From positions 1 to 42,271 of the forward strand of contig NZ_JARXAB010000146.1 of NCBI RefSeq assembly GCF_029866045.1: DNA of 42,271 nt, read 5' to 3'. Shown piece by piece: positions 1,448 through 36,221 of the stretch (position 1 is the first letter of the stretch; every line of letters begins with the position of its first letter). Made by a program: the position numbers and the translations under genes. The notes beneath the pieces were generated by a model. It was not told the DNA's origin. It made no database searches and saw only the letters and a program-made list of their open reading frames with translations. Source of the stretch: Ramlibacter sp. GTDB taxonomy: Bacteria > Pseudomonadota > Gammaproteobacteria > Burkholderiales > Burkholderiaceae_C.

Positions 1448-2394
1448 GCCGCGCCCACTGGCGCAGAGGCCGTGTGCAGACTCGGCTTCCACCCGCTGAA
1501 CGGCACCTCCGCAATCCCCCGAACACCCGGCCGCAGCATCAGCACCGCACCGTCCAGGCTCGCATCAAAACCCGGCGCGGGCTGCGCCGGTGGGATGCTG
1601 GTGACAAACAGCCACTCCATGCTCGGCCCACCAAAGCTGCACATGGCCGGCTTGCTCACGGGCAATTGCAGGGAGCGGTCTAGGCGGCCCTCAGGGGTGA
1701 AGCGGTGCACCTGGCCGGCGTCGTTGCCGCAGATCCAGTAGCAGCCCTCGGCGTCGACCGCCGCACCGTCCGGTCGGCCGGGGTACAGGTTCATGTCGAC
1801 GAACTCGCGCTGCCCGTGTGGCACGCCGTCGTCGCCAAGCTCAAAGCGCCAAATGCGTTGTACTTTCGGGTGCGAGTCTGAGAGGTACATCACCCGTCCG
1901 TCAGGGCTGAACCCGAGGCCGTTGCCGGTGAGTAGACCTCGCACCAAGGGCTCTGACAGGCCGTTCGTGTCAAAGCGAAGCAGCACGCCGTCGGCAGCAG
2001 CCAGCCCCATGTCCATCACCATGGTGCTGGCCCACAGGCGACCCTGGCGGTCACAGCGACCGTCGTTGAAGCGCATGCCAGTGCGTGGGTGGGTCATGGT
2101 TTGCAGCAGGCGGGCATCGGCCTTTTCGCCCGCCTCGGGCAGGTCGACCGCGAACAGGCCGCTTTCCATGCCCGACACCAGGCCGCCACCCGCGCGCAGG
2201 GCGATGCAGGCCACCCGCTCGTCGGTCTGCCAGCTGCGAGTGCTACGCGTCGCCCAGTCGAACCGGCGGATGAAGCGGCCCTCGATGTCCACCCAGTACA
2301 GCGCCTGCTCGGCGGCGTGCCAGACCGGGCTCTCGCCGACCCGGTCGCGGGTGGTGGAGACAACATCGACCGCGGGTGTGAGGACCTGGCTCAT
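1444..2394 (-). CDS. SMP-30/gluconolactonase family sugar lactonase
   Basis: The 316-residue protein matches SMP-30/gluconolactonase/LRE beta-propeller lactonases, metal-dependent enzymes opening aldono- or aldaro-lactones. Visible family signatures are GESPVWHAAEQALYWVDI near the N-terminus with the metal-ligand Glu, RFNDGRCDRQGRLWASTM with the substrate-binding Arg and Asn, GNGLGFSPDG, and YPGRPDGAAVDAEGCYW, whose PDG Asp is the usual metal ligand and base. The ATG overlaps the stop of the upstream dehydrogenase gene by four bases (ATGA), and the stop overlaps the kinase start by four bases. Translation is therefore coupled across all three genes. The natural lactone is most likely the product of the adjacent Udh-like enzyme. 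Confidence 0.88.
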   Translation of the reverse strand: MSQVLTPAVDVVSTTRDRVGESPVWHAAEQALYWVDIEGRFIRRFDWATRSTRSWQTDERVACIALRAGGGLVSGMESGLFAVDLPEAGEKADARLLQTMTHPRTGMRFNDGRCDRQGRLWASTMVMDMGLAAADGVLLRFDTNGLSEPLVRGLLTGNGLGFSPDGRVMYLSDSHPKVQRIWRFELGDDGVPHGQREFVDMNLYPGRPDGAAVDAEGCYWICGNDAGQVHRFTPEGRLDRSLQLPVSKPAMCSFGGPSMEWLFVTSIPPAQPAPGFDASLDGAVLMLRPGVRGIAEVPFSGWKPSLHTASAPVGAA

Positions 2395-3218
2395 TCGAAA
2401 TGGCCCGAGCGCACGAAGGCGCCGCCCTGATAGAGGTTGGCCGGATCGCTCAGGTCGAGTGTGGGCTGCACTGCCTCGACCTGGTGGCGGAACGCGTCGG
2501 CGCTGTCACGCGGCCGGTAGCCAATGTGGCGGGCCTTGGTGTTGTCATAAAAGGCGGTGGCGTTATCCGAGATGCCGTAGATGACGCTCCAGCCCACCAC
2601 CGGTGCGGTGAGGCCCGCGACCACCAGGCGCTCCAGGTCGTCGTAGGAGAGCCAGGTGGCCAGCATGCGGCGGTTGGCGGGCTCGGGGAAAGAAGAGCCG
2701 ATGCGCACCACCAGCGTCTCAATGCCGAAGCGGTCCCAGTACAGGCGTGCCACGTCTTCACCGAAGGCCTTGGACAAGCCATATAAGCCGTCGGGGCGCG
2801 GCGCGCTGTCGGCGTCAACCACCTGGTCTTGCCGCCAAAAGCCCATCACGTGGTTGGAGCTGGCGAAGATCACCCGTTTGACGCCGTTCTTGCGCGCGGC
2901 CTCGTAGAGGTTGTACAGGCCCACGATGTTGCCGGCGAGGATAGGCTCCCAGGCCTGCTCGGTGGACACGCCGCCCAGGTGCACCACCGCGTCGACGCCG
3001 TGCAGCAGTTTTTGCGCGGCCGCTGCATCGGCCAGATCCATCTGCACGCATTCCTCACCGGCCTGCGCCGCATCAAGGGGCGCGATGTCGGTCAGGCGCA
3101 GCGACTCGCAATAGCGCTTGAGGCGCGGCCGCAAAACGCGGCCCAGTCCGCCAGCGGCACCCGTTAGGAGCAGACGTTGAAAGGTGATGGGTGTGACGGG
3201 TTGGTCGAGCATGGCCAT
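2391..3218 (-). CDS. Uronate-dehydrogenase-like NAD-dependent sugar dehydrogenase
   Basis: An extended short-chain dehydrogenase of about 275 residues with the NAD-binding LLLTGAAGGLGR near the N-terminus, the catalytic Ser in FASSNH and the YxxxK pair in DGLYGLSKAFGE. Segments such as ECVQMDLADA, NIVGLYNLYEAARK and VRIGSSFPEP closely match Agrobacterium-type uronate dehydrogenase (EC 1.1.1.203), which oxidises hexuronates to aldaro-1,5-lactones. The next gene encodes a lactonase, as expected. The third gene is gluconokinase, which does not fit an aldarate product, so an unusual aldose substrate is possible. The start is uncertain: ATG 3218 leaves the normal short lead, whereas ATG 3257 has a better Shine-Dalgarno-like AAGGGG but would overlap the divergent epimerase gene. 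Confidence 0.82.
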   Translation of the reverse strand: MAMLDQPVTPITFQRLLLTGAAGGLGRVLRPRLKRYCESLRLTDIAPLDAAQAGEECVQMDLADAAAAQKLLHGVDAVVHLGGVSTEQAWEPILAGNIVGLYNLYEAARKNGVKRVIFASSNHVMGFWRQDQVVDADSAPRPDGLYGLSKAFGEDVARLYWDRFGIETLVVRIGSSFPEPANRRMLATWLSYDDLERLVVAGLTAPVVGWSVIYGISDNATAFYDNTKARHIGYRPRDSADAFRHQVEAVQPTLDLSDPANLYQGGAFVRSGHFE

Positions 3219-3249
3219 GTGTCGGAAAAGAGTTCGGTTATCGTACGAC

Positions 3250-4320
3250 ATGGCCATCCCCACCCCTTCGCCACTGGACCCTTCGAGGTTCATTCATGGC
3301 GAGTCAGGCCAGAGTGTTTTGTTTCCCATCGCCACGCCCGGCGGGCTGCGTGCCGCCGTGTGCGCGCATGGCGCGAGGCTGCTGCAACTGGTGGTGCCAG
3401 ACCGTGAGGGCCGTCCCCGGGATGTCGTCCTGGGCCACGACAGTCTGGAGCGGGTGCTGGGGGGCGTTCCCTCACTGGGCGCCTTCATCGGCCGCTATGC
3501 GAACCGCATCGGGCAGGCCCGCTTTGCGCTCGAGGGGCGCAGTTGGCAGTTGCCGGCCAATGATGGCCAGCACTGCATCCACGGCGGCCCCAGGGGCAGC
3601 CGGCACCAGATGTTCCGCTTGGTGTCCCAGTCCGCGCAGGCGGTCACCTTGGGTTGGACGTTTCGCGAAGAAGAGGACGGATTCCCGGGCGACGTCGATC
3701 TGGCCGTGTGCTACGCGCTCTCAGACCCCGGCACCTTGTCCATCACCTGGGAGGCACGGGTCACGGGCCGATCGACCGTCCTCAATTTCACCCCACACCC
3801 CTTCTTCAACCTTGAGGGAGATGGTTTGGGAAGCGCGGGCAGTACGCTTTTGCAGACCGATGCCGCGCAGGTTCTGCGGCTCGATGCGACACGCTTGCCC
3901 ACCGGTGACATCGACCCCGTGGCCGGCGGCCCGCTGGACTTCCGGGAAGGACAGACGCTGGACGCGGCAAGGCAAGTCCTGGGCACCGGCATTGACCATT
4001 GCCTCGTCGTGCCGCCCGGCGCAGACGGTGGGCTGCGGCGCATGGCGCGTGCGCACGCAGCCGGCAGTGGCCTGTCGATGGAGGTGTGGTCGGACGCACC
4101 GGCCATTCAGGTGTACTCCGGCCACGGGCTCTCAGGGGAGCTGCCCTCCTGCCGGGGCAAGGAGGGCCATATCTACGGCCCTGGCGCGGGCTTTTGCCTG
4201 GAGCCCCAGCAGTTCCCCGATGCGCCTAACCAGCCGAATTTCCCGTCGGCCGTCGTGCCCGCCGGTGAGACCCGACGCGGCACGGTTCAATACCGCTTCA
4301 GCGCGGGTTCCGCCCCATAA
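3250..4320 (+). CDS. Aldose 1-epimerase (mutarotase)
   Basis: The 356-residue protein belongs to the GalM family, which interconverts alpha and beta anomers of free aldoses. Supporting motifs are GAFIGRYANRIG, NDGQHCIHGG with the first conserved His, NFTPHPFFNLEGDG with the catalytic His, and CLEPQQFPDAPNQPNFPS with the catalytic Glu. Length is typical. No signal peptide is evident, so it is probably cytoplasmic. I chose ATG 3250; an in-frame ATG 3184 would run into the divergent dehydrogenase gene. It is divergent from the dehydrogenase-lactonase-kinase operon and would supply it with the right anomer. The exact sugar is not evident. Sulfoquinovose loci often carry such a mutarotase, but so do many ordinary sugar loci. 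Confidence 0.9.
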   Translation: MAIPTPSPLDPSRFIHGESGQSVLFPIATPGGLRAAVCAHGARLLQLVVPDREGRPRDVVLGHDSLERVLGGVPSLGAFIGRYANRIGQARFALEGRSWQLPANDGQHCIHGGPRGSRHQMFRLVSQSAQAVTLGWTFREEEDGFPGDVDLAVCYALSDPGTLSITWEARVTGRSTVLNFTPHPFFNLEGDGLGSAGSTLLQTDAAQVLRLDATRLPTGDIDPVAGGPLDFREGQTLDAARQVLGTGIDHCLVVPPGADGGLRRMARAHAAGSGLSMEVWSDAPAIQVYSGHGLSGELPSCRGKEGHIYGPGAGFCLEPQQFPDAPNQPNFPSAVVPAGETRRGTVQYRFSAGSAP

Positions 4321-4351: not shown

Positions 4352-5269
4352 ATGAAATCACCTCTCTCCGTTGACCAGTGGCAACTTTTTTTGCAGATCG
4401 CCGAGCGGGGAAGCCTCACCGAAACCGCTGCGGCGCGCGATGTTGCGCAATCGGCGATCAGCCGGCAACTCGGTGCCATCGAGCGGGCCTGCGGCGGCAA
4501 GCTGTTCGAGCGCACTCCGCGAGGCGTGCGCCTCAATGAAGTCGGTCAGAGCCTGTACCCACGGGTGCAGGCCTGGGTGCAGCAAGGCCAAGCGCTCACC
4601 GAGGATGCGACGGGGCAGCTTCGAGAGCCGGCGGGGCTGGTGCGCCTGGGCATCATCGAATCGCTCGCCGACGAGGTTTGTGCACCCGTCCTGGCCGAGA
4701 CCCGGAAGAAGTTTCCCGAGATCCGGCTGCACCTGGTGCCCGGCATGAGCGGCCGCATCTCCGAGAGCCTGGAGCGCGGCGCGCTGGACATCGCCTTGTT
4801 TTCCGAAAACACCCGCGGGCGAAGTGGCCGGGGCGATGCCGTCGGGCGCATGCCGCACGTGCTGGTGGGGCCGCCGGGTGATCGCCTCACCGCCAAGAAG
4901 GAGCTGCCGTTCGAAGCGCTCCATGACCTGCCTCTGGTCGTACCAGGGCAACCCTACGCCTTCCACAGTGTGCTGGAACACTGGGCCCGGCGCAGCGGCA
5001 TTCGGCTGAACGTCCAGCTCGAATGCGACGCACTGCATCTGCAAAAGCGTCTGGTGGTGGCGGGTGGGCTCTACGCGATCATGGGTCTCACCGCGGTTCG
5101 CTCGGAAGTAGCCACCGGGCAATTGCAAGCCGCACGAATCGTGCGGCCCAGTCTGGACCGCAACATCGTGCTGCGCGTCTCCACACAGACGGTGCCCTCG
5201 CAGGCCACCTTGGCTGTGCGGGACATCGTGCGCCGGCAGGTCCGGAAGGTGTTTCCTTCCCACGCCTAA
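4352..5269 (+). CDS. LysR-type transcriptional regulator
   Basis: A 305-residue LysR protein. The N-terminal winged helix-turn-helix (about residues 5-65) reads through FLQIAERGSLTETAAARD, QSAISRQLGAIE and LFERTPRGVRLNEVG, the classic LysR pattern. The rest is the effector-binding domain with a LysR-style start near VRLGIIES. Start ATG 4352 gives the usual short lead; ATG 4343 in frame is an alternative adding three residues. It lies 31 bases after the epimerase and is followed in the same direction by Bug, sulfatase, monooxygenase and reductase genes, its most likely targets. The inducer is unknown. Confidence 0.92.
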   Translation: MKSPLSVDQWQLFLQIAERGSLTETAAARDVAQSAISRQLGAIERACGGKLFERTPRGVRLNEVGQSLYPRVQAWVQQGQALTEDATGQLREPAGLVRLGIIESLADEVCAPVLAETRKKFPEIRLHLVPGMSGRISESLERGALDIALFSENTRGRSGRGDAVGRMPHVLVGPPGDRLTAKKELPFEALHDLPLVVPGQPYAFHSVLEHWARRSGIRLNVQLECDALHLQKRLVVAGGLYAIMGLTAVRSEVATGQLQAARIVRPSLDRNIVLRVSTQTVPSQATLAVRDIVRRQVRKVFPSHA

Positions 5270-5452
5270 AGGGCGGTGGCGCCTGTTTGCATCTGCTTGC
5301 ACGTGCTTGAAGCTGTGTCTTTGGTATATCTCCAGAGGCATGACCTGCCTGCCCTGTCAGGTGCTATCAACCTCCTGGGTCAGGGCCTAGATTGCTCGCA
5401 GGGGCCGAACCAGGCCTTCGCCTGCCCTCACACCTCTGTTTGGACTTAGACC
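5270..5452 (+). promoter_or_regulatory. Probable promoter/operator region before the Bug gene
   Basis: This 183-base gap between the LysR and Bug genes contains several candidate signals but no gene. They include an 8-bp palindrome GCACGTGC (5299-5306) inside a repeated TGCTTG context, a TATATC element near 5325-5330 that could be a -10 box, and a 5-bp inverted repeat ACCTG/CAGGT (5343-5347, 5358-5362). These are short, so the LysR binding site cannot be fixed from sequence alone. Confidence 0.3.
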
Positions 5453-6481
5453 ATGCCGCTGAAAAACACGCCTTCCCAAGCCCAGTCGCTCGCAGCCTTC
5501 CTTCCTTCCAGCCAGCGCCGCACCCTCTTGGGCGCGATGGCGACGACGGCGGCAGGTCTTGCACTACCCGCCTCGGGCTGGGCCCAGGCGGCCTACCCTT
5601 CGAAGGCGATTTCTCTGATCGTGCCCAACCCCCCGGGTGGCAACACGGACATCCTGGCCCGCATCTTTGCGGCGCCGCTCGCCAAGGCCCTGGGCCAGCC
5701 GGTGGTGGTCGACAACCGGGGTGGCGCCGGTGGTGTCATCGGCATCACGGCGGCGGCCCGCGCCGCCCCCGACGGTCACACCATTGCCCTGGGCAACTTG
5801 AGCGACCTGGTCGTCAGTCGCTACGCGCAGGCCAATGTCCCCTATGACCCCGCCAAGGATTTCATGCCGATTTCCGCGCTGGCCAAGGTCTCAATCGTGG
5901 TGACCGCGCTGCCCACCATGCCGGCGAAAACCTTCCAGGAATTCCTCGCCATGGCCAAGGCCAACCCCGGCAAGTACAAATGCGGCACTGCGGGCAACGG
6001 CACCATCGGCCACCTGTGCCTGGAGGCGCTCCAGGCCGCAGCCGGTGTGGACATCGTCCACGTTCCCTACCGAGGCGGGGCGCCTGCGCTCAATGATCTG
6101 CTGGGTGGTCACATTGACCTGCTGATCGACGGAACCGCCTTTGCTCAAGTGAAGGCTGGCAGACTGAAGGCGCTGGCGGTCACGGCTGATCGCATCCCCT
6201 CACTGCCCAACGTGCCTTCGATTGGTGAGTCGGGTGTGGCCGGCTTTTCTTTTGGCAACTACTGGGGCCTGCTGATGCCGGCGGGGTCGCCGGCGCAAGC
6301 GGTCGCCCGGCTCAATGCTGAAGTGCAAAAGATTGCCGAACAACCCGAGATTCGCGCGCAGCTCGAGGGTGCCGGCTTTGCCACTTACGTCTCGACGCCG
6401 GCGGAATACGGGCAGGCGCTGCAACGCTCCTACGAACAAATCGGGGCCTTGGTGAAGAAGGCGAAGATCACCTTCGACTGA
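5453..6481 (+). CDS. Bug/TctC-family periplasmic substrate-binding protein
   Basis: The 342-residue protein has a long N-terminal export signal containing SQRRTLLGAM, resembling a twin-arginine motif, then a hydrophobic stretch ending near GWAQ-AAYP. The mature part starts with YPSKAISLIVPNPPGGNTD and contains VVVDNRGGAGGVIG and HVPYRGGAPALNDLLGGHIDLL, all standard Bug-family signatures. Bug proteins bind small carboxylates or related solutes in the periplasm, in the model case feeding a TctAB transporter. No TctA or TctB gene is in the window. It sits between a LysR gene and a sulfatase gene, so the ligand may be connected with the sulfur-related genes downstream. Ligand unknown. Confidence 0.9.
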   Translation: MPLKNTPSQAQSLAAFLPSSQRRTLLGAMATTAAGLALPASGWAQAAYPSKAISLIVPNPPGGNTDILARIFAAPLAKALGQPVVVDNRGGAGGVIGITAAARAAPDGHTIALGNLSDLVVSRYAQANVPYDPAKDFMPISALAKVSIVVTALPTMPAKTFQEFLAMAKANPGKYKCGTAGNGTIGHLCLEALQAAAGVDIVHVPYRGGAPALNDLLGGHIDLLIDGTAFAQVKAGRLKALAVTADRIPSLPNVPSIGESGVAGFSFGNYWGLLMPAGSPAQAVARLNAEVQKIAEQPEIRAQLEGAGFATYVSTPAEYGQALQRSYEQIGALVKKAKITFD

Positions 6482-6512
6482 CGCGTTCGTCCTGCCTTAC
6501 CGCGTCCGCAAC

Positions 6513-8183
6513 ATGTCGCGCAAGCCCGACATTGTCCTGGTCATGGCCGATGACATGGGCTATTCCGACATCGGCTGCTATGGCAGCGAAATCGACACGC
6601 CCCATATCGACCGCCTCGCGAAAGAGGGGGCGCGGTTCTCGCAGTTCTACAACACGGCCCGCTGCAGTCCGTCCCGCGCCTCCCTCCTGACCGGATTGCA
6701 CCCGCACCAGACCGGCGTAGGCATTCTGACCAAGGACGACCGCCCGCACGGTTACCGTGGTTCATTGAACGACAACTGCGCCACCCTGGCAGAAATCCTG
6801 TCTGATGCCGGCTATGCCACCTGTCTCTCGGGTAAATGGCATTTGGCTTCCAACACCAAGGCGCCCAACGGCGCCTGGCCCACCGAGCGCGGCTTCGAGC
6901 GCTTCTATGGAACCCTGGCCGGGTCCTGCTCGTACTTCCAGCCGGCGACCTTGACCCGCAACGAGACCCCTGCCGAAGCCGAAGCGACGCAGGACCCTGG
7001 CTACTACTACACCGATGCCATCTCGCGTGAGGCCTGTGCCTTTGTCCGCGATCAGGGCGACAGCGACGATCCTCTCTTTTTGTACGTCGCCTACACCGCA
7101 CCCCATTGGCCTTTGCAGGCGCTCGAGGAGGACATCGCGAAATTCAGGGGGCGCTATGACGCGGGCTGGGATGCGCTGCGCCAGCAGCGCCTTGAGCGCC
7201 TGCGTGAGTCGGGCCTGCTGGCCGGGAGTTTGGACTCCCTCGCGGACTGTCCGCGTGACCCGGGCGAGCCGGCCTGGGAACAGGCCGATCACAAGGCCTG
7301 GGAAGCGCGGCGCATGGAGGTGTACGCGGCGCAGCTTCACCGCATGGACCAAGGCATTGGCCAGATCCTGGACGCGCTCGATGCAGCGGGGCGTCTCGAC
7401 AACACCCTCGTCATCTTCCTCTCCGACAACGGCGCGTGCGCCGAAGTGCTGCCCTTGGATGGGAGCGCTGAGGCCTTCAAGAAGCGCAGGCCCGATCTGG
7501 ACAGGCTCAAGCCCCGCAATGGCAATGAGTTGCAAGTTGGCAATGAGCCGTCGATCAACCCCGGCACCGAAGACACCTTCGCCAGCTACGGGCGAGCCTG
7601 GGCCAATCTCTCGAACACTCCCTTTCGGCTTTACAAAAGGTGGACCCATGAGGGCGGCATTTCCACCCCGTTGATCATCCGCTGGCCAGCCGGTCATCTG
7701 CCGGCGGGCGCCATCGTGCGCGGGCCCTTTCAGCTCACGGATATCTTGCCAACGGTGCTCGAAGCCGCTCAGGTGACTTACCCGCGTCAACTCGGTGGGC
7801 GGGACTTACCTGCTTGCGAGGGAGTCAGCTTCCTGCCTTCGTTGCGCGGGCAGGGTGCGCCTGCTGCGACGACTGGGACGACCCCTCCGACCGATTCAGC
7901 CACATCAGCCTGCCACACCCTCTTCTGGGAACACACCGGCAATGCCGCCGTGAGGCGCGGCCGCTGGAAGCTGGTGCGTGAGTACCCCAAGCCCTGGGAG
8001 CTGTACGACATGGACACCGATCGGGCCGAGACCCGAGACCTCGCCTCCGTGCATCCGGACACCGTCCGTGAACTGGCCGATGCCTGGCAGGTGTGGGCCG
8101 ACCGCGTCGGGGTGGTGCCTTGGGACCAGGTGCTCGCGGGCTACCGGGCCTTGGGTAAGAGTGAGGAAGAGGCGGCGGGTTGA
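6513..8183 (+). CDS. Type I (formylglycine) sulfatase
   Basis: The 556-residue protein is an S1-family sulfatase, hydrolysing sulfate esters. The N-terminus has the metal-binding pair in VMADDMGYSD (D13, D14). CSPSRASLLTG holds C51, the CxPSR cysteine that must be converted to formylglycine. SGKWHL and FLSDNGA provide later active-site and metal residues, and LYDMDTDRAETRDLA is the typical C-terminal sulfatase segment. No signal peptide is visible, which suggests cytoplasmic action on an imported sulfated compound. It lies 31 bases after the Bug gene and before an SsuD-like monooxygenase. A formylglycine-generating enzyme would be needed and is not in the window. The 248 bases after it (8184-8431) contain no gene; an AT-richer stretch near 8360-8390 may hold the next promoter. 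Confidence 0.92.
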   Translation: MSRKPDIVLVMADDMGYSDIGCYGSEIDTPHIDRLAKEGARFSQFYNTARCSPSRASLLTGLHPHQTGVGILTKDDRPHGYRGSLNDNCATLAEILSDAGYATCLSGKWHLASNTKAPNGAWPTERGFERFYGTLAGSCSYFQPATLTRNETPAEAEATQDPGYYYTDAISREACAFVRDQGDSDDPLFLYVAYTAPHWPLQALEEDIAKFRGRYDAGWDALRQQRLERLRESGLLAGSLDSLADCPRDPGEPAWEQADHKAWEARRMEVYAAQLHRMDQGIGQILDALDAAGRLDNTLVIFLSDNGACAEVLPLDGSAEAFKKRRPDLDRLKPRNGNELQVGNEPSINPGTEDTFASYGRAWANLSNTPFRLYKRWTHEGGISTPLIIRWPAGHLPAGAIVRGPFQLTDILPTVLEAAQVTYPRQLGGRDLPACEGVSFLPSLRGQGAPAATTGTTPPTDSATSACHTLFWEHTGNAAVRRGRWKLVREYPKPWELYDMDTDRAETRDLASVHPDTVRELADAWQVWADRVGVVPWDQVLAGYRALGKSEEEAAG

Positions 8184-8431
8184 TCCAGGGGCGTTCTGCC
8201 TCGGGGCAGGCTTCATCCTGTTGCCTGCGCCGACAAGCCGGAGTCGCCCTGGTGGCTGCCGGTCCGTGGAGCGGCTTTCGCTGCGTCAGTCCTTCGGCGT
8301 GAAGCCCTCCGGCGGAACTGCCTGCGGTTCCTGCCGCCGCCCGGCGTGAGTCGCGGGCTCCTCTATCATTCAATTACTTCAAGCAAGGCTGGACTTTTGG
8401 CCTGTTCGGGCTCTATCCCAGAGGTGTTTTC

Positions 8432-9586
8432 ATGAGCATTGTTCCGGTCCGCGGTGCGGACATCGAGGGCGCAGAGGTCGCGTGGTTCGCGCCCCTGTGC
8501 TCTGATGATTTCCGCTATCTCGGCGTTCCCGAGGGCGAGTTGCGCAGCAGCTGGGCCCACACCAGCCGCATCACCCAGCGCGCCGAGGAACTGGGCTTTC
8601 GCAACATCTTGTGTCCCTCGTCCTATCAGGTTGGCCAGGACACGCTGAGCTTCGTCGCCGGCATGGCCCCTCGATTGAAGGCGATGAGCATGTTGGCCGC
8701 CATCCGATGCGGCGAGGTGCAGCCGGCCATGCTGGCCCGCACGGTCGCCACGCTGGACCACATGACTGAGGGGCGCCTCACGCTGAACGTGATCTCGTCG
8801 GACTTCCCCGGCGAGGTGGCCGACAGCGCCTTCCGCTACCGCCGCTCCTGGGAGGTGGTGGAAATTCTCAAGCAGGCCTGGACTCAGGACAAGATCGATT
8901 ACGCGGGCGAGATCTACCAGATCAAGGGCCTGTCCACCGACCCAGTGCGCCCCTACCAGAGCGGTGGCCCGCTGCTGTACTTCGGTGGCTACAGCCCCGA
9001 CGCGCTGGAGCTTTGCGGCGCGCACTGCGATACCTACCTGATGTGGCCCGAGCCCAAGGCGCTCATTGCCCAGCGCATGCGTGACGCTCACGAACGTGCC
9101 GCCAAATACGGCCGTATGCTGGACTACGGCCTGCGGGTGCACATGATCGTTCGTGACACCGAGGCCGAGGCCCGCGAATACGCCCGCGAGTTGGTCTCTC
9201 GCCTCGACGACGGCAAGGGCGCTGAAATCCGTGGCCGCGCGCTGGACGCCGTGAGCCTGGGCGTGGCCCTGCAAAGTGCCAACCGTGACCGCGCCGATGA
9301 CGAAGGCTATGTGGAGCCCCACCTCTGGACCGGCATCGGCCGCGCCCGCAGTGGCTGTGGCGCCGCCATCGTGGGCAGTGTGGACCAGGTGCTTTCCGAA
9401 ATTCAGGAGTATCAGAAGATGGGCATCCGCGCCTTCATCTTCTCCGGCTACCCACACCTGCAGGAATGCGAAATCTTCGGCACCAAGGTGCTTCCGCAGC
9501 TTAAGACCGTCAACCTCGCACAGGCCTATGGCCGCGTGCCCACACAGACCCCCGCCACGCCTCTGGGCGTGGGCAGACGCCAATGA
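8432..9586 (+). CDS. SsuD-like FMNH2-dependent monooxygenase (alkanesulfonate/sulfosugar type)
   Basis: The 384-residue protein is a bacterial-luciferase-fold monooxygenase closest in pattern to alkanesulfonate monooxygenase SsuD. Conserved blocks include YLGVPEGE, ATLDHMTEGRLTLNVIS, LLYFGGYSPDA, LRVHMIVRDT (R235 and H237, matching SsuD R226 and H228), LWTGIGRARSGCGAAIVG and SGYPHLQE (H342, matching SsuD H333). SsuD's active-site Cys54 and His11 appear not to be conserved, so the substrate probably differs. Such enzymes need a separate flavin reductase, not found here. The gene overlaps the following aldo-keto reductase by four bases. Monooxygenase plus aldo-keto reductase is the pairing of the sulfo-SMO sulfoquinovose pathway (SmoC/SmoB), where C-S cleavage gives a 6-aldehyde that is then reduced. 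That role is inferred. Confidence 0.85.
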   Translation: MSIVPVRGADIEGAEVAWFAPLCSDDFRYLGVPEGELRSSWAHTSRITQRAEELGFRNILCPSSYQVGQDTLSFVAGMAPRLKAMSMLAAIRCGEVQPAMLARTVATLDHMTEGRLTLNVISSDFPGEVADSAFRYRRSWEVVEILKQAWTQDKIDYAGEIYQIKGLSTDPVRPYQSGGPLLYFGGYSPDALELCGAHCDTYLMWPEPKALIAQRMRDAHERAAKYGRMLDYGLRVHMIVRDTEAEAREYARELVSRLDDGKGAEIRGRALDAVSLGVALQSANRDRADDEGYVEPHLWTGIGRARSGCGAAIVGSVDQVLSEIQEYQKMGIRAFIFSGYPHLQECEIFGTKVLPQLKTVNLAQAYGRVPTQTPATPLGVGRRQ

Positions 9587-10536
9587 CCTCTCCCAACCCC
9601 TCCACTTCATCCACGTCCACTGCCATCGGACGCATGACCCTTCCCAACGGCCGCTCGCTGTCCCGCCTGGCCTATGGCGTGTGGCGCCTGTCGGAAGCCG
9701 CCGACAGCTCGGTGCACGCCAACGTGGCCCGCATCGAGGCCTGCCTGGCGCAGGGCATCACCACCTTTGACCACGCCGACATCTACGGCAACTACAGCTG
9801 TGAGCAGCTCTTTGGCCAGGCCCTGCGGGCGCAGCCCTCGCTCAAGGACAAGATCGAGGTGGTCACCAAGACCGACATCATGCTGATGTCGGACCAGTGG
9901 CCTGGTACTCGCGTCAAGCACTACGACACCAGCGCCCAGCACGTTCGTAGCAGTGTCGATCGTTCGCTCGCGCGTATCGGGGTGGACGTGATCGACCTGT
10001 TGCTCATTCACCGCCCCGACCCGCTGATGGATGCTGGCGAGCTCGGTGCGTGTCTCGACGGCCTCATTGATACGGGCAAGGTTCGCGGCGTGGGCGTGTC
10101 CAACTTCATGCCCTGGGATGCAGACCTGCTGCAATCGCGCATGAAGCACCGTTTGCAGGCCCAACAGATCGAGCTCGGCCTGCTGCACACCGCGCCTTTC
10201 ACCAACGGCCAGCTGGCCCACGCGCAGCAGCACCGCATGCCGGTGATGGCCTGGTCGCCTCTCGGGGGCGGCCGGCTGCACACACAGGCCGGCCAAGCGG
10301 GTACCGCCGCCGCCCGGCTCGCGCCCCGGCTGGCGGCGCTGGCGCGGGAGGCTGGCACGGATACCAGCGCTGTGGCTGTCGCCTGGTTGCTGCACCATCC
10401 GGCTGGCATACAGCCGGTCATGGGCACCAACCAGATCGAACGCATCGTCCGCATCGCCGATGCGCTGAAGGTTCCGATGGACCGCCAGACCTGGTTCGAG
10501 CTTTACACCTTGGCCAACGGCCACGAGGTGCCCTGA
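9583..10536 (+). CDS. Aldo-keto reductase, YdhF-like
   Basis: The 317-residue protein is an NAD(P)H-dependent aldo-keto reductase. The catalytic tetrad is visible: D63 and Y68 in FDHADIYGNY, K96 in VVTKTD and H143 in LLIHRPDPLMD. GKVRGVGVSNF and MAWSPLGGGRL are cofactor-side motifs, and the pattern resembles E. coli YdhF. The ATG overlaps the stop of the monooxygenase gene by four bases (ATGA), so the two are probably made in fixed ratio. A reductase directly behind a desulfonating monooxygenase could reduce the aldehyde formed, as SmoB does with 6-oxo-glucose. It is the last gene of the plus-strand series and converges with the GH31 gene. Confidence 0.88.
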   Translation: MTSPNPSTSSTSTAIGRMTLPNGRSLSRLAYGVWRLSEAADSSVHANVARIEACLAQGITTFDHADIYGNYSCEQLFGQALRAQPSLKDKIEVVTKTDIMLMSDQWPGTRVKHYDTSAQHVRSSVDRSLARIGVDVIDLLLIHRPDPLMDAGELGACLDGLIDTGKVRGVGVSNFMPWDADLLQSRMKHRLQAQQIELGLLHTAPFTNGQLAHAQQHRMPVMAWSPLGGGRLHTQAGQAGTAAARLAPRLAALAREAGTDTSAVAVAWLLHHPAGIQPVMGTNQIERIVRIADALKVPMDRQTWFELYTLANGHEVP

Positions 10537-10579
10537 CTCACGGCCTTTTCAGGAACAGCCCGGGCACGCGACGGGTATT

Positions 10580-10610
10580 TGCGGGCCATCTGCGGGCCAT
10601 CTGCGGGCCA
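10580..10610. repeat. Short tandem repeat, 11-bp unit, nearly three copies
   Basis: TGCGGGCCATC occurs at 10580-10590 and 10591-10601, and its first nine bases again at 10602-10610. It lies in the 128-base gap between the convergent reductase and GH31 genes. It may be replication slippage; no clear hairpin terminator is visible in the gap. Confidence 0.6.
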
Positions 10611-10664
10611 CGCGTGCAGGGCATGACCCAAGTCCCGGCGAGACCCGGCGGCCGCCCGATGGTG

Positions 10665-12781
10665 TCAGAAGCGGCGGATCTCGCTCACCGGGTCGTCATG
10701 CCGCGCGACCTGGCCGGGGGCCGGGGCGGCGCAGGCAATCGCAGCCCCCGAGCGCGCAAACAAGGGCAGCTTGTCCAGCGCTGCGTCCACCGTGTGCCAC
10801 TGGCCGCTGGCGTAGGCCTGGCCTGTCTCGAAGTCGAACCACTGGCCGCCCTGCGGCAGTTGGGGCAGATAGATGTGGCGGCGGGTTGCGCCTTCTTCCA
10901 CCACCGGGGCGACCAGCAGGCTGCTCCCCAGCATGAAGTCGTCGCACCCTTCCAAGCACTGCGCGTCTTCGGGAAAGTCGTAAAAAGTTGGCCGGATGAT
11001 GGGCTCGTGCTGGCTGGCGGCGCGCTCGAAAAGAGACCACAGATACGGCATGAGCCGGTAGCGCAACTCGATGGCGCTGCGGGTGATGGCGCTGACCTCC
11101 GGGTGCAGCCAGGGCACGGTGGTCACCCCGTCGGCCTTCCAGGAGTTCATCACCATGCGCGGGTTCAGGCAGCAGGCCTGCACCCAGCGCGCCAGCAGCT
11201 CGGGGCCGGGGCTGGGGCCGAAGAAGCCGCCCACATCGTGGCCGACGTTGAACATGCCCGAGAGCGACATCTGCAAGCCGGTTCGGAGGTTCCACCGCAG
11301 GTTGCGCCAGTCACTGCTGTTGTCGCCTGTCCAAGTCTGGGCATAGCGCTGGATGCCGGGCATGCCGCCACGGGTGATGGTGTAGACCGGCGCCTGCGGC
11401 GAATGGGCCTGCTGCGCCTCGTAGGTGGCCCGCGTCATCAGCAGCGGGTGCAGGCCGCGCGAGCGATGCATAGGCACGGGCCGCCCGAAGCCGCTGGACT
11501 GTGCGTAATCCTCGTTGATCGCGTACTCGTTGTTGTCGTTCCAGCCTGCGTCAATGCCGTAGTTCAGCACCATCCGGGTGAGGCCGTCTTTCCACCAAGC
11601 CAGAGTGGTCGGGTTGCTGAAGTCGAGGTGTGAGCCCTGGCCATCCCAGAAGGGTTCGAGTACCGGCTGGCCGGTTCGCGCGTCCTGGATGAAGCCGCCA
11701 GCAGCCTCCACCGCACCGAAGGCCGGGTGGTCGTCGAGCAGACAGGGCTTGGTGTTGGCCACCAGCATCAGGCCTGCCTCGTGGAAGCGGGCGTTCAGCG
11801 CCTTCGGGTCCGGGAACTTGCTGGCGTTCCAGGTAAACACGTAGCGGCGCTTGCCGCGGCTGGAGTAGCCCGAGCCGTAGTGGAAAGAGGACACCGGCAC
11901 CCGGTGGGCGATTGCCTCGTCCAGAAACTTGCCCAGTTGCACCTGCGCGTCGGGCGCATCGGCCAGCCCCATGGCGGTCTGGGCAAAACCCGCGGACCAG
12001 CGCGGAGGCAGTTGCGTGCCGCCAATGAGCTGCACGAATTGGGCGATCACCTCCGCCGGGCTGCGACCCGCGATGACGTAGTAGTCCAGGTCACCATCGT
12101 CGATCTCCACGTAGCGGTAGAAGTCGTGGTAGTTGTCGTGCTCGCAGCCCAGGTCGAAGGTGCAGGCTGCCAGGGTGTCGTAGTACAGGCCCACCCACTG
12201 ACCATTGCCGGCGCGCTTGATCATGAAGGGCCAGTGTTTGTACAGGGGGTCGCCGCGCTCGGGGTCATAGCCCAGAGCGTCCAGGCCGGCGGTGCGCAGG
12301 CGCCGGCCGTGCAGGTCCAGCGGGCCGGTCTTGTCACCGAGCCCGTAGTAGCGGTCAGCGCGGTCGCGCGCCTGGTAGTGGCGCACCAGGCCGCCGCGGC
12401 CCTGGCGCAGGTAGGCGGTGGTGGCGCGGTCTTGCAGCACCGGAGTGTCTGCGCCGAAGGCGTGCCAGCACAGACCCAGCGGACCGGTGGCTAGAGTGAC
12501 GGACAGTTGCGAGGTGCCAAAGCGGTTCTCTTCGGCCCCGGTGGCGGGCAAGTTGAAGCCGGACAGGTCCTCCCGTTCACGCCCTTCCCAGGGGGCCTGG
12601 CCTTGCGGCGCGACAGCCCAGGTGCGCGGCTCGCGCCAGCCGCCTGCCGGGCGCAGCGACACCCGCGCCAGGGTCTCGCCCAGAAAGCGCACCTGCATCT
12701 CGCCGCCATCGTCCAAACTGGTGGTGGCCACGCGGCCCGCGTCGTCGCCCTGGAAACGCCAGGCAGTGGCTTGCCAGGGTG

Positions 12782-12785
<4 letters not shown>
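10665..12785 (-). CDS. GH31-family alpha-glycosidase
   Basis: The 706-residue protein is a GH31 retaining glycosidase. [18 protein letters not shown] and [12 protein letters not shown] are N-terminal domain landmarks. The TIM barrel carries D417 in GWNDNNEY as nucleophile and D488 in [10 protein letters not shown] as acid/base. [18 protein letters not shown] segment replaces the commoner DIDYM motif, placing it in a less studied GH31 branch. No signal peptide is visible, so it acts on imported glycosides. ATG 12785 overlaps the ATPase stop by four bases. I do not see the GH31 sulfoquinovosidase pattern (WMADFGEY around the nucleophile in YihQ), so a sulfoquinovosidase role is unproven; alpha-glucosidase, xylosidase or galactosidase activity is equally possible. 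Confidence 0.88.
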
Positions 12786-13813
<1,028 letters not shown>

Positions 13814-13846: not shown

Positions 13847-14896
13847 TCACTTGACCCCCGCGCTGGCGATGCCGGTGGTGATGTAGCGCTGAAGGAAGGC
13901 AAAGACGACGGTCACGGGCAGCAGCGTGATCACGGTCATGGCCAGGAGGTAGTGCCACTGGGTATTGAGCTCACCCTGGAAGGAGTTGAGCGCCAGCTGC
14001 AAAGTGAAGAATTCGGACTTGGACAGCACGATCAGCGGCAGTAGGAAATCGTTCCAGCGCCACATGACCGAGAAGATGGCTAGCACCGCTAATGCGGGCG
14101 CCGACAGCGGCAAGATGATGCGCCAGTAAATGCGCCACTCGCTGGCGTGGTCCATGCGCGCCGCCTCGATCAGCTCGTCGGGGATGGTGAGCATGTACTG
14201 GCGCAGCAGGAACACGCCGGTGGGCGTGGCCACGGCTGGCAGGATCACCCCCCACAGAGAGTTGAGCAACCCGGTGCTGTTGATCACAAGAAAGACGGGC
14301 ACCAAGATGATGGTGGGCGGAATCATCAGCGTCGCGATGATCAGCAGAAACACTGCCTTCTGACCGGTGAAGCGGTATTTAGAAAGAGCGAAGGCCGCCA
14401 TCGAGTTGAACAACAAGGTGAGCAGGGTGGCCACGACGGTGATGAACACCGAATTCCACAGGTACTTGCCGAAGGTGAATTTGCCGAACAGGTCGGTGTA
14501 ATTGGAAGTGGCCCAGGTGATTTTTTCTACCGGAGTCCGCTCCTTGATGTTGACCTGGATCTCGGTGCTTGGCTGTGCCGGATCGACCAGGGTGGCCATG
14601 ATGCCGATGCGGCGCACCTGGGCCAACTCGCGCGGCTGGCCCTGTTCGTCCTTGACCGTGAACAGGGGCAGGGGCTTGTCATGCCCCTCGACCTTCACCG
14701 TCTTTTGCGAGTAGGGCAAAAAGGTGGGCGGAAACTTGCCGATGGCCGCTTCGGTCTTGAGCGAAGACATCACCAGCCATAACACCGGGGCGAACATGGT
14801 GAAAAGGCCCAGCACCAGGTAGGCGTAGCTGGCGGTATCGGTCCAATGCAGGCCCCGCCGTCCCCGGGTCGCGGTAAGAAATTGCCAGATGGACAT
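13847..14896 (-). CDS. ABC sugar permease, MalG-like, with enlarged periplasmic loop
   Basis: The 349-residue inner-membrane permease has about six transmembrane helices. The conserved EAA loop is EAARMDHASEWRIYWRIILP, the contact to the ATPase. Between the first helix (about residues 23-45) and the second lies a loop of roughly 100 residues containing FPPTFLPYS and TLVDPAQPSTEIQV, larger than in most MalG homologues and reminiscent of alpha-glucoside permeases. The start codon overlaps the last base of the upstream permease stop. It forms the channel with the MalF-like protein. Confidence 0.93.
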   Translation of the reverse strand: MSIWQFLTATRGRRGLHWTDTASYAYLVLGLFTMFAPVLWLVMSSLKTEAAIGKFPPTFLPYSQKTVKVEGHDKPLPLFTVKDEQGQPRELAQVRRIGIMATLVDPAQPSTEIQVNIKERTPVEKITWATSNYTDLFGKFTFGKYLWNSVFITVVATLLTLLFNSMAAFALSKYRFTGQKAVFLLIIATLMIPPTIILVPVFLVINSTGLLNSLWGVILPAVATPTGVFLLRQYMLTIPDELIEAARMDHASEWRIYWRIILPLSAPALAVLAIFSVMWRWNDFLLPLIVLSKSEFFTLQLALNSFQGELNTQWHYLLAMTVITLLPVTVVFAFLQRYITTGIASAGVK

Positions 14897-15873
14897 CAGC
14901 GTACCTTCTGGCCGGCCTCGCTGGCGCGGGTCAGTTTGAGTTGTATCAGGGTCAGCACGATGAGCAGCAGCGCCAGTGACAGCGAGGCCGCAGCGGCCAG
15001 CCCATACAGGTGAATCTGCTCAGCGAAGCCGGTCTGGTAGATGAACTGCACGATGAAGGTGGTGGCCGAGCCCGGGCCGCCGCCGGTGAGGATGAACACC
15101 TCATCGAAAATTTGCACCGCGCGGATCATCGCTAGGACGAGCACCACGATCAGATTGGGCATGAGCAGGGGCAATGTGATGCGGGTGAGCGTGCGCCAGT
15201 GCGAGGCGCGGTCCATCTCGGCGGCCTCGTACAGGTCACGCGGGATGGCCTGCAGGCCGGCCAGCAAAATCAGGGTGTAAAAGCCCATGTGGGCCCATAT
15301 CGAGACGAAGATAGTCCAGAAAAATGCCCATGAGCTGTTGGTGAGCCACTCCACCGCTTGGGCGCCCTGGGCCACCAATACCGCGTTGAAAACGCCCTGG
15401 CTTTGCAGCAGCCATTTCCAGATCAGGGCCACCACCACCGGCGAGAGCAGTACCGGATAGAAAAACACCCCACGCCAGAAGCCGCGGCCGATGATCTTGC
15501 GATTGAGCACCAGCGCGGTCACCAGCGACAGCCCCACCATGAGGGTGACCTGGACCACGCTGAACTTGAGCGTGTTGCTCATGGCGCGCCAGAACACGTC
15601 CTTGCGGCAGGTGGAGATGTCCAGGTAGTCGCGGCACTCGTAGAGGATCTGAAAGTTTTCCGCACCGGTGAAGGGCCGCTCGGCGGGCATCAATTGCACG
15701 CCGCCGGTGACGGCATACCAGAGGTTGATCAGGATCGGCAGGAAGGTGAACAGGCCGAAGACGATCAGGTTGGGGGCGACGAACAGCCAGCCCAGTCGCG
15801 ACAGGCCAAGCCAGCGCTGCCCGAGGCGAAATAGCGGCTCGAAGAGGTTGAAGAACCCGGCGAGAAGACGCAT
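14896..15873 (-). CDS. ABC sugar permease, MalF-like
   Basis: The 325-residue inner-membrane protein has about six hydrophobic helices, beginning with LFVAPNLIVFGLFTFLPIL, and the EAA loop EAAEMDRASHWRTLTRITLP. It pairs with the following MalG-like permease, whose gene it touches. A loop near residues 65-95 contains two Cys (ECRDYLDISTC), which could form a disulfide on the periplasmic side. Seventy bases separate it from the binding-protein gene, a gap containing a strong hairpin that probably lowers permease expression relative to the binding protein. Confidence 0.93.
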   Translation of the reverse strand: MRLLAGFFNLFEPLFRLGQRWLGLSRLGWLFVAPNLIVFGLFTFLPILINLWYAVTGGVQLMPAERPFTGAENFQILYECRDYLDISTCRKDVFWRAMSNTLKFSVVQVTLMVGLSLVTALVLNRKIIGRGFWRGVFFYPVLLSPVVVALIWKWLLQSQGVFNAVLVAQGAQAVEWLTNSSWAFFWTIFVSIWAHMGFYTLILLAGLQAIPRDLYEAAEMDRASHWRTLTRITLPLLMPNLIVVLVLAMIRAVQIFDEVFILTGGGPGSATTFIVQFIYQTGFAEQIHLYGLAAAASLSLALLLIVLTLIQLKLTRASEAGQKVR

Positions 15874-15942: not shown

Positions 15943-17214
15943 TTACCTCTGGGCCTGCTTGACTGCGTCCTGCATGTCGGCGTTGATCTTGTTCAGCGCC
16001 TCATCCACGCTCATTTCGCCCACCACCGACTGGGTCACTCGGGCCACTGTGGGCAGCATCATCGCGCGGTTGAACCTGTAGCCCTGGAACTGGAATGCGA
16101 CCGGGGAGAGATTGGCCACACCCGCGCTGAAGGCGCCGAGGGCCGCCTTGGCGCCCGGCAGGGCCTTGCCGTAGTCGATGCCCTTCTTGGCCAGCCCGGC
16201 GTGGGCTGGAATGTTCTCGGTGCGGGCGGTGAACTCGGCGTAGGCCTGCTCAGAAGCCATGAACTCGAGGAAGGCCGCAGTTTCCTTCGGGGCCTTGCTG
16301 GTCTTGAGCGCCACCCAGGCGGCACCACCAGGGATGCCAGAGCAGGCGGCCGGACCGCAAGGGTTGGGAACGGCCACCCAGTCGAACTTGGTGCCCACGT
16401 CCTTTTGCAGCCGGTTGATCTGCCAGGAGCCGGAGAGCACCATGGCCACGTTGCCGTTGACGAATTCACCGATCGAGTCTGCATACGTCGATCCGCCCGA
16501 ACCGGCCCACACCTCGCGCAGCATGGTGCCGTCCTTGTGCCAGCCGACGAACTTGGTGACCGCGGTCCTGTAACCTGGGTCGATCACTAACTCGCCCTTG
16601 GCGTCGAAAATCTTGGCGCCGTAGCTGATGGCCGGGCCGGCAAAGCGATGGCCGGAGCGATCCCAGGCCATGCCAGCCTTGGTCTGAGTGGCCTTTGACA
16701 CCTTGCGCACGGCGTCGGCCCAGTCGTCCCAGGTGGCCTTGGGGCCGGGGAGGGCGACCTTGGCCTGATCAAACAGGGTCTTGTTCACATAGGGGCCGGT
16801 CATGGTCAGCTGGGACATGAATCCGTAGATTCCCCTGTCGCTTGCCGAGGGGCGCAGCCAACCGGCCGTGGCGCCGAAGTTGTCGTCGAAGTACTTGCGG
16901 TTCTTCAGGTTGGCGGAGATGTCCAGGTAGTGCTTGGACAGTCCGCCGAGGTCTGTCACCCGGGCAATGTCCGGGCCCTGGCCGGCAGCCAGTTGCACGG
17001 GCAGCTGCTCGACGATGGTCTTGTAGGGGACGGTGTCGACGATGATCTTGGTGCCTGGGTTCTGGGCCTCGAAACGCTTGGCCAGTTCGCTGGTCACTTC
17101 GCACTCGATACCGTCCTGGTAGCACATGACACGGACATCGGCAGCCGAAGCGGCGCCGGCGCCGGCAGCCAAGGCGGCCAGCAGAGCGGCGCGGGACAGG
17201 GTGGTGGTTTTCAT
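15943..17214 (-). CDS. ABC transporter sugar-binding protein, CUT1 type
   Basis: The 423-residue protein carries a signal peptide with cleavage after GAASA (about residue 24). The mature protein has the extracellular solute-binding family 1 layout, with FEAQNPGTKIIVDTVPY, LAAGQGPDIARV, FVNGNVAMVLSGSW, and GGAAWVALKTSKAPKETAAFLEFM. Four cysteines are visible in two pairs (VMCYQDGIECEV and NPCGPAACSG), unusual for this family and possibly disulfide-bonded. A good Shine-Dalgarno (AGGAG) precedes ATG 17214. As first gene of the transporter-GH31 operon it sets specificity: the imported glycoside is probably the GH31 substrate. Ligand unknown. Confidence 0.93.
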   Translation of the reverse strand: MKTTTLSRAALLAALAAGAGAASAADVRVMCYQDGIECEVTSELAKRFEAQNPGTKIIVDTVPYKTIVEQLPVQLAAGQGPDIARVTDLGGLSKHYLDISANLKNRKYFDDNFGATAGWLRPSASDRGIYGFMSQLTMTGPYVNKTLFDQAKVALPGPKATWDDWADAVRKVSKATQTKAGMAWDRSGHRFAGPAISYGAKIFDAKGELVIDPGYRTAVTKFVGWHKDGTMLREVWAGSGGSTYADSIGEFVNGNVAMVLSGSWQINRLQKDVGTKFDWVAVPNPCGPAACSGIPGGAAWVALKTSKAPKETAAFLEFMASEQAYAEFTARTENIPAHAGLAKKGIDYGKALPGAKAALGAFSAGVANLSPVAFQFQGYRFNRAMMLPTVARVTQSVVGEMSVDEALNKINADMQDAVKQAQR

Positions 17215-17292
17215 GGGGTCTCCTGTGGGGCGGATCAGCCCTTGTGAAAATGTTGCATCGCCAGCTTGTGTGCCGGCCCGGTGGATCCATCT

Positions 17293-21582: not shown

Positions 21583-21637
21583 GGCAGATTTCTGGGAGGG
21601 GTCTTCAGGGGTGCAGGGCCTTGAGAAGTCCCTGCGC

Positions 21638-23128: not shown

Positions 23129-23162
23129 GGTGTTACTTCCTACTTGCCTTGAACGATTGAAA

Positions 23163-24578: not shown

Positions 24579-24602
24579 GGGAAGAAGTGAAAAATCCATT
24601 AG

Positions 24603-24618
24603 GTATGCCACGGTATAC
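24603..24618. promoter_or_regulatory. Probable GntR operator overlapping a -10 box
   Basis: A 16-bp near-palindrome, GTATGCCACGGTATAC, lies in the 102-base gap between two divergent MmgE/PrpD genes. An almost identical site precedes the Bug gene at 28232-28247, with four differences from this one. TATACT (24614-24619) is a good plus-strand -10 element, so binding would block transcription. A GntR/FCD gene lies 2 kb away, and such regulators bind short TATACC-type palindromes. Assignment to this regulator is inferred. Confidence 0.65.
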
Positions 24619-24680
24619 TATCAGCATTCCATTCCCGGCTATCCACGGCCGCCCACCGCTTTTTCACCAGCGACACCCCT

Positions 24681-26111: not shown

Positions 26112-26151
26112 TGTCGGAGAGGCCGGACGCGGCGCGTCCGACGCCAGCCGC

Positions 26152-26817: not shown

Positions 26818-26873
26818 GGGCGCGATTGTGGCACGCCCCCCGGCCGATTCACCAGGATCAGGAGAGATCACCC

Positions 26874-34118: not shown

Positions 34119-34122
34119 GGTT

Positions 34123-34965: not shown

Positions 34966-35084
34966 CGCGATGACTCCCAGTCATGGAAACGAGAGCCTCG
35001 CTCCGGTTGAAAAAGGGCGGTCTGAACCGCAGGCCTAGATGTTCGATCCGACCACCCTGCGCTGGTAGTGGAATCCCCTTCGGA

Positions 35085-36182: not shown

Positions 36183-36221
36183 CGTTCGTTCCTCATTGTC
36201 TGCGCCTCTGGGTGTTCTCGC

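Follow-up and report, generated by a model that had tools for sequence, protein, structure and literature searches.

The sulfoquinovose (SQ) monooxygenase route, known as sulfo-SMO or sulfo-ASMO, has been described for alpha- and betaproteobacteria (passages of PMC9594981 and PMC12890257). Genomes with both SmoB and SmoC have been designated sulfo-SMO-positive (part of PMC13372026), and family GH188 has already been described within sulfo-SMO clusters (part of PMC10755693). Here we report a locus of this kind on contig NZ_JARXAB010000146.1 of Ramlibacter sp., the whole of which (42,271 nucleotides) is referred to as the window. Because the route is already described in these two classes, the core of the locus is not new. 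Based on its gene content, we consider it probable that the locus is a sulfo-SMO cluster for SQ catabolism in which the SmoEFGH importer has been replaced by a module of an ATP-binding cassette (ABC) importer and a GH31 glycosidase.

The locus resembles the sulfo-SMO systems of Agrobacterium tumefaciens and Novosphingobium aromaticivorans in its SmoC and SmoB orthologues. It differs from them in having no linked SmoA, GntR regulator, exporter or SmoF, and in carrying GH188 instead of a GH31 sulfoquinovosidase (SQase) and the ABC-GH31 module instead of SmoEFGH. Many betaproteobacterial relatives, unlike the window, also carry SmoA, the GntR regulator and SmoEFGH. A further likeness is to the alphaproteobacterial clusters of SmoC, SmoB, a flavin reductase and a tripartite ATP-independent periplasmic (TRAP) carrier in Roseicitreum (L098), Rhizobium (L099) and Ruegeria (L100), whose SmoC proteins are 71-74% identical to that of the window. 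A divergent Gfo/Idh/MocA gene is likewise present in all three, its assignment to GH188 resting on a test of the L098 gene. They have the TRAP carrier where the window has the ABC-GH31 module, and L098 and L099 additionally hold a sulfate/sulfite exporter.

Core genes for sulfoquinovose

The assignment to the sulfo-SMO route is carried by three genes:

8432-9586, plus strand: SmoC, sulfoquinovose monooxygenase dependent on reduced flavin mononucleotide (FMNH2), of the luciferase-like monooxygenase (LLM) type, named from PDB matches, identities and a tree
9583-10536, plus strand: SmoB, 6-dehydroglucose reductase (aldo-keto reductase), named from PDB matches and its 4-base overlap with smoC
18283-19404, minus strand: GH188 NAD+-dependent sulfoquinovosidase (Gfo/Idh/MocA fold), named from PDB matches and residue spacing

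The window SmoC matches PDB entries 7olf (E 1e-192; 74.7% identity) and 7oh2 (3e-187; 71.8%), both of which we take to be SmoC enzymes, their PDB names being generic, and E. coli SsuD (1nqk) at 3e-57 and 33.4%. In a quick tree of 68 rows it falls with 7olf and 7oh2 within a 45-row set (SH-aLRT, the approximate likelihood-ratio support, 99), and ten SsuD rows lie outside. This was the phylogenetic check proposed in an earlier note on this DNA, and the protein grouped with the two solved enzymes, not with non-sulfonate ones. The window SmoB matches 7bbz (1e-103) and 7bby (5e-103), presumably both SmoB, and YdhF (1ur3) at 1e-59. The two genes are linked through an ATGA common to both, 4 bases at 9583-9586. 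The earlier note had named a sulfatase, a monooxygenase, an aldo-keto reductase, a GH31, an ABC importer and an aldose epimerase, all of which are present; it had also seen the overlap, and its suggestion of a sulfosugar locus with the sulfo-SMO pairing is borne out by the PDB matches, identities and tree. By homology, then, the pair is SmoC/SmoB of the sulfo-SMO route, beyond mere likeness to SsuD and YdhF, and the window enzymes are predicted to release sulfite and glucose from SQ.

Alignment with SsuD places C23 of the window protein at H11 and V67 at C54, and R235, H237 and H342 at R226, H228 and H333. Both the two changes and the three kept residues had been noted before, as a sign of a bulkier substrate. 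That last part does not stand: the same Cys and Val are found by alignment in both 7olf and 7oh2, and the changed His11 and Cys54 are therefore marks of SmoC rather than of a new substrate.

The GH188 protein was overlooked by the earlier note. A Gfo/Idh/MocA protein by domain, it matches 8zn9 (E 1e-142), 8qc3 (2e-111) and 8qc2 (5e-110), of which the last two are solved NAD-dependent sulfoquinovosidases. Its R158, L162 and K164 are spaced as the sulfonate-binding R166, L170 and K172 of ArSqgA, and its E181 and H185 as the catalytic E189 and H193 (reference residues from passages of PMC10755693). Its counterpart near smoC in Roseicitreum is 65% identical. Judged from homology and residue spacing, the sulfoquinovosidase of the locus is this gene. 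In the proposed route, GH188 would release SQ from its glycoside. SmoC would then cut the C-S bond to give sulfite and 6-dehydroglucose, its FMNH2 being supplied by a flavin reductase whose gene lies outside the locus, and SmoB would reduce 6-dehydroglucose to glucose.

The nearest relatives of the window SmoC belong to a Comamonadaceae bacterium (L018, 98% identical) and a Ramlibacter (L019, 97%), and neither SmoA nor GntR was seen beside smoC in these two loci or in the window. Among 399 genomes of the order, drawn evenly, a search at 1e-60 gave ten matches, of which one is that of the window and the other nine are 36-38% identical, the level of SsuD. Ten of 299 family genomes carry SmoC at 1e-100, and GH188 is present at 57% identity or more in nine of the ten. 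A scan of named genome contigs yielded 80 SmoC loci, 44 of which were taken as betaproteobacterial, 15 of these being titled Limnohabitans. Counts over the 44 are lower bounds, as contigs are often cut: SmoB 41, SmoA 33, GntR 37, GH188 24, TauE 10 and sulfatase 1.

These surveys bear on whether SmoC of the window clade acts mainly on another sulfonate, be it a different sulfosugar or an alkanesulfonate. The alphaproteobacterial relatives, in which a TRAP carrier takes the place of SmoEFGH beside SmoC, would suit that reading; the 72-75% identity to solved SmoC and the presence of GH188 in nine of ten SmoC genomes argue against it, and we regard it as highly improbable.

Other relatives turned up in the scan. 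The Saprospiraceae-type SmoC relatives (L070-L086; 56-59% identity) have almost none of the proteobacterial neighbours, a SmoB-like gene occurring in L079, L081 and L085. On an Emticicia plasmid (L102, 6489-12417) a SmoC relative (52%) has a sodium/solute symporter and a GH95 gene as neighbours, perhaps a sign of a different substrate. Two different smoC loci, L031 and L052, come from one bin (Loclat_bin-11913), indicating either two copies or a mixed bin.

The ABC-GH31 module

On the minus strand between 10665 and 17214, a GH31 gene and a sugar ABC importer face the monooxygenase pair, as the earlier note had described:

10665-12785, minus strand: GH31 of a clade distinct from YihQ, with alpha-glycosides of an acidic hexose as predicted substrate (PF01055, 2e-76; clade and gene contexts)
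12782-13813, minus strand: ABC importer ATPase (PF00005, TOBE_2)
13847-14896, minus strand: ABC importer permease (PF00528)
14896-15873, minus strand: second permease, an open reading frame (ORF) named by its position and by its conservation (77-99% identity) in those related loci where it is present
15943-17214, minus strand: solute-binding protein, not SmoF (PF13416, PF01547)

The most likely start codon of GH31 is the ATG at 12785, which gives a 4-base overlap with the end of the ATPase gene (12782) and agrees with the end coordinate in the earlier note. Together with the binding protein, both permeases and the ATPase, GH31 makes up a single unit, which is also found without smo. No SmoF entry is among the 40 PDB hits of the window binding protein. 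A SmoF encoded elsewhere in the window genome (93% complete) was considered and rejected, the best matches being 24-25% identical and nothing exceeding 25%.

The combination of SmoC-SmoB with GH31-ABC and GH188 recurs in related contigs, so that the arrangement is not due to chance. In the family sample GH31 (at least 54% identity) occurs in 19 of 299 genomes: nine of the ten with SmoC against 10 of 289 others (Fisher p 2e-11). For GH188-like genes (1e-80) the association extends further, with GH31 in 14 of the 27 genomes carrying either SmoC or a GH188-like gene, compared with 5 of 272 (p 5e-13), and, SmoC genomes excluded, in 5 of 17 with a GH188-like gene against the same 5 of 272 (p 8e-5). 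SmoC and GH31 lie in one stretch in six of the nine genomes with both, the window's included; in G502 the module follows smoA head-to-tail, and in the other five the arrangement is convergent.

The distribution of SmoF is consistent with an exchange of importers. Of the ten family genomes with SmoC, SmoF was found in three (G409, G426, G647). All seven without it, including the window's, have the module, which in six of the seven is docked at smo, although the stretch read in G552 and G624 takes in just a part of it; docking at smo against presence of SmoF gives p 0.03. Among the 44 betaproteobacterial loci, 13 show SmoEFGH genes only (the L023 binding protein being SmoF by its match to 7nbz, 2e-128), 18 module genes only, three both and ten neither. 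A set of 42 rows, comprising the window and 41 of the 44 loci, gives SmoEFGH alone in 13, the module alone in 19, both in 3 and neither in 7 (raw p for exclusion 0.001), and on the best tree each importer changes at least nine times.

Several observations weigh against the proposed reading of the locus. Kinship is not taken into account in the Fisher tests, and loci L022, L026 and L041 are identical in contig to three of the ten SmoC genomes. A tree-aware test of exclusivity was not significant (5 independent pairs, median p 0.63). G460 has neither SmoF nor a docked module, its module lying elsewhere, and G426 and G647 combine SmoF with an undocked module. Ten of the 19 GH31 genomes are without SmoC, five of these ten also being without a GH188-like gene under the limits applied, and in one genome (G514) no ABC gene of the module was seen next to GH31.

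The module also occurs beside other SQ genes. Since an aldolase of the 2-keto-3,6-dideoxy-6-sulfogluconate (KDSG) type matched 51 of 299 genomes at E 1e-70 and was too unspecific, it was dropped as a marker of the sulfo-Entner-Doudoroff (sulfo-ED) route and GH188-like hits were counted instead. The sulfo-ED-like clusters of the family (L180-L187) share GH188-like genes with the window; unlike it, they use a dehydratase-aldolase route and have no SmoC, with a SmoF-type importer in L180 and L185-L187. In one of them (L183, genome G593) the module, with its GH31 cut by the contig end, follows after about 1 kb a cluster of an IlvD/EDD-type dehydratase, an HpcH/HpaI-type aldolase, a GH188-like enzyme and a short-chain dehydrogenase/reductase (SDR). 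NCBIfam gives these genes generic names, with arabinonate dehydratase exceeding its cut-off and xylose dehydrogenase and others falling short of theirs, and the reading of such clusters as sulfo-ED is suggested by their architecture and by the SmoF-type importer in four sisters (L180, L185, L186, L187). The GH188-like proteins of L181 (2671-3852) and L183 (7785-8906), the only two aligned, have Tyr (REPFYPK) at the position of the window's sulfonate-binding Leu, and GH188 variants with Tyr there are described in part of PMC11465081.

Two further contexts are similar. On a complete plasmid of Microvirga ossetica (L193), uxaC, the module and uxuA are followed by a sulfo-ED-like cluster that includes TauE, glpK and an SQase exceeding the cut-off of the yihQ model. 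The Marinovum importer (L191), which has no GH31 with it, comes last in a smo cluster of a regulator, a dehydrogenase in the GH188 position, SmoC, a reductase and a flavin reductase. Homology thus documents repeated docking of the module at SQ loci, and we still favour replacement of SmoEFGH by this module at the Ramlibacter locus.

Substrate of the GH31 clade

In alignments GH31 keeps both its nucleophile and its acid/base Asp. At YihQ positions 262, 288, 301, 304 and 508, which we take to be Q, Q, R, W and Y in YihQ and K, E, R, W and Y in the Novosphingobium enzyme, the window protein has A, S, R, Y and F. W304 and Y508 are not kept, Q262 and Q288 are changed as in the Novosphingobium SQase, and the Arg at 301 is Gln in six of nine kin aligned. 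GH31 was rejected as a YihQ-type sulfoquinovosidase on the loss of W304 and Y508, and its earlier placement within the SmoCB pathway is not supported: it belongs to the separate module, and the sulfoquinovosidase is GH188. The column of YicI Asp306, a residue presumed to hold the hydroxyls of neutral sugars, contains Gly or Ser in all 21 clade members, Gly in three SQases and Asp in YicI and the second GH31 of the genome (contig C57), in an alignment of distant proteins. That second GH31 was itself tried as an SQase and discarded, its best PDB match being YicI (3e-52; YihQ 4e-39) and its residues in the YihQ columns being unfit.

GH31 may alternatively be a second sulfoquinovosidase with a sulfonate site of its own, the module being a full unit for import and hydrolysis of SQ-glycosides. 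Its association with GH188-like genes in genomes without SmoC (5/17 vs 5/272) and the loss of the YicI Asp as in SQases would fit this. On the other side, W304 and Y508 are gone and R301 varies among kin, the window already has GH188, the Microvirga locus holds a yihQ-model SQase alongside a GH31 of the same clade, and homologues occur in glucuronate operons with no SQ genes in view. We consider this alternative unlikely.

The contexts of GH31 point instead towards uronates. Of 48 plasmid records with GH31 hits, seven contexts were opened, and five have uronate genes near GH31: a glucarate-dehydratase-like gene near the module in L192, uxaC and uxuA in L193, and uxaC, uxuA and GH2 in the glucuronate operons of Ruegeria, Paracoccus and Nitratireductor (L198-L200). 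The GH31 of these three is of the same clade and 46-48% identical; unlike the window, they have a TRAP carrier and show no SQ genes in the stretch opened, the SmoC of Ruegeria TM1040 and P. seriniphilus lying on other plasmids than their glucuronate operons. Three more contexts, from 46 records with binding-protein hits, were those of Marinovum, of Phyllobacterium (with three Gfo/Idh/MocA genes but none named as a uronate gene) and of Aminobacter (GH88, kduI, kduD). Less favourable to a uronate substrate are the Roseomonas (L196) and E. coli plasmid (L201) contexts, which show no uronate gene, and the fact that four of the five glucuronate contexts come from homologues only 46-48% identical. 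A class-wide GH31 search (340 genomes) gave only three further hits, at about 40%.

Beside the module in the window lies a further gene, which the earlier note had likewise overlooked:

17266-18243, plus strand: CE15-like hydrolase of the glucuronoyl-esterase family (GHSRGGK, Ser176; PF22244, E 1.4e-28, and motif)

A PF22244 esterase also adjoins the module in L161. A glycerol-3-phosphate-dehydrogenase-like gene (below model cut-off) precedes the module in L162, and glpK (over cut-off) adjoins it in L168. Together, the uronate, esterase and glycerol neighbours suggest glycosyl-glycerols of acidic hexoses as the substrate.

These neighbours also bear on the view that the module is an ordinary operon for neutral alpha-glucosides such as glucosylglycerol, placed beside smo as both end in glucose, with SQ entering by another carrier. 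The best NCBIfam match of GH31 is MalA-type, below cut-off, GH31 is without SmoC in 10 of its 19 genomes, and the glycerol genes would suit glucosylglycerol too. Yet GH31 lacks the Asp retained by YicI, five of seven contexts have uronate genes nearby, a CE15-like esterase adjoins the module, and the module docks to two SQ routes. A neutral-glucoside operon therefore strikes us as rather doubtful.

We propose from gene context that GH31 is an alpha-glucuronoside hydrolase; no GH31 alpha-glucuronidase was recognized by title or opening of the abstract among the literature matches listed. The importer and GH31, possibly with the CE15-like esterase, would then be a separate module for alpha-glycosides of acidic hexoses, the importer probably taking up sulfoquinovosyl-glycerol as well as glucuronosyl-glycerol, and GH31 cleaving the glucuronoside. 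Plants and algae contain sulfoquinovosyl-diacylglycerol (SQDG) alongside glucuronosyl-diacylglycerol. Literature matches listed support this co-occurrence, for example the opening of the abstract of PMC11771548. In this light, we tentatively suggest that the locus may serve both anionic glycolipid head groups, sulfoquinovosyl-glycerol and alpha-glucuronosyl-glycerol, through one new type of ABC importer, with GH188 splitting the first and the GH31 clade the second, and SmoCB and an SDR-lactonase pair feeding both sugars to central metabolism.

Accessory genes and place of the locus

Around the core and the module lie the following genes:

929-1492, minus strand: gluconokinase, GntK/IdnK type (TIGR01313, 171.5 bits, cut-off 113.75)
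1444-2394, minus strand: lactonase of the SMP-30/gluconolactonase type (PF08450, E 5.5e-72)
2391-3293, minus strand: SDR of the uronate- or aldose-dehydrogenase type (PF01370; Azf model 133 bits, below the cut-off of 400)
3184-4320, plus strand: aldose 1-epimerase (PF01263, 3e-64)
4352-5269, plus strand: LysR regulator, accessory stretch (PF00126, PF03466)
5453-6481, plus strand: TctC-type periplasmic receptor, accessory stretch (PF03401, 4e-66)
6513-8183, plus strand: type I sulfatase, accessory rather than core (PF00884, E 6e-61; PDB 7all, 7e-112)

Two roles seem equally plausible for the SDR, lactonase and gluconokinase (929-3293): converting glucose to 6-phosphogluconate, or acting on a uronate. 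The SDR is 53% identical to one beside the module and the glucarate-dehydratase-like gene in L192, and the aldose epimerase lies nearby as the earlier note had said. Another pairing of SQ and uronate genes was seen in Hydrogenophaga (L020, 2240-14036), where smoCBA is followed by an FCD regulator, a similar SDR, a lactonase and a TRAP carrier, with two genes 56% and 32% identical to the glucarate-dehydratase-like protein.

No flavin reductase or TauE family was found among the 30 window ORFs scanned against Pfam, a subset of those present, in keeping with the earlier observation that neither a flavin reductase nor a sulfite exporter is in the window. Six PF01613 genes elsewhere in the genome were considered as the smo-type flavin reductase, the best being 49% identical to the Roseicitreum SmoA, and no clear orthologue is among them. 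Some sulfo-SMO clusters, as in N. aromaticivorans, are described without a flavin reductase in passages of PMC9594981, so that a linked one is not obligatory and its lack here is not unusual; the enzyme is presumably supplied in trans.

The sulfatase carries the motif CSPSRASLLTG with Cys51, in agreement with C-x-P-x-R (here CSPSR), which we take to be the formylglycine motif of type I sulfatases. The earlier note had taken sulfatase, GH31 and SmoCB to form a single novel pathway whose substrate is a sulfosugar that is sulfated or bulkier. In favour, the sulfatase gene precedes smoC in the same orientation, with 248 bases between them, and is kept at 85% in L018, as far as that contig extends. 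However, L019 has no counterpart of window 4484-8206 (LysR, TctC, sulfatase), its flanks aligning at 89-94%, a sulfatase is shown in one of 44 betaproteobacterial loci (L018) at the cut-off used, and the SmoC residues are typical of SmoC. We rejected the sulfatase as a core step on its absence from L019 and its single occurrence, and regard it as peripheral; a single new pathway of this kind seems very improbable.

Elsewhere in the window, 20698-28229 holds a gene of the phosphoenolpyruvate-mutase/isocitrate-lyase type, an FAD-dependent oxidoreductase and three MmgE/PrpD genes, which with TctC receptors at 5453, 28275 and 31664 look like a tricarboxylate-type catabolic island. The stretch 32919-42269 encodes an enoyl-CoA hydratase, two acyl-CoA dehydrogenases and an ATP-grasp acyl-CoA ligase, as well as an AMP-binding/PP-binding protein truncated by the end of the window.

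Within our search of the open literature, the Comamonadaceae loci with an exchanged importer are new, as is a GH31 clade in an acidic-sugar context. The same search found no paper on sulfoquinovose and Limnohabitans. Labelling with 13C-sulfoquinovose of two Comamonadaceae sequence variants, ASV 4 and ASV 38, is reported in PMC13372026, the available passages of which give them no pathway. The locus described here offers a candidate sulfoquinovose pathway for Comamonadaceae such as Limnohabitans, to which 15 of the 44 betaproteobacterial SmoC loci are assigned by title. It also suggests that the sulfo-SMO and sulfo-ED routes have a second importer, and it draws attention to a GH31 clade for which activity on acidic sugars is predicted from the neighbouring genes.

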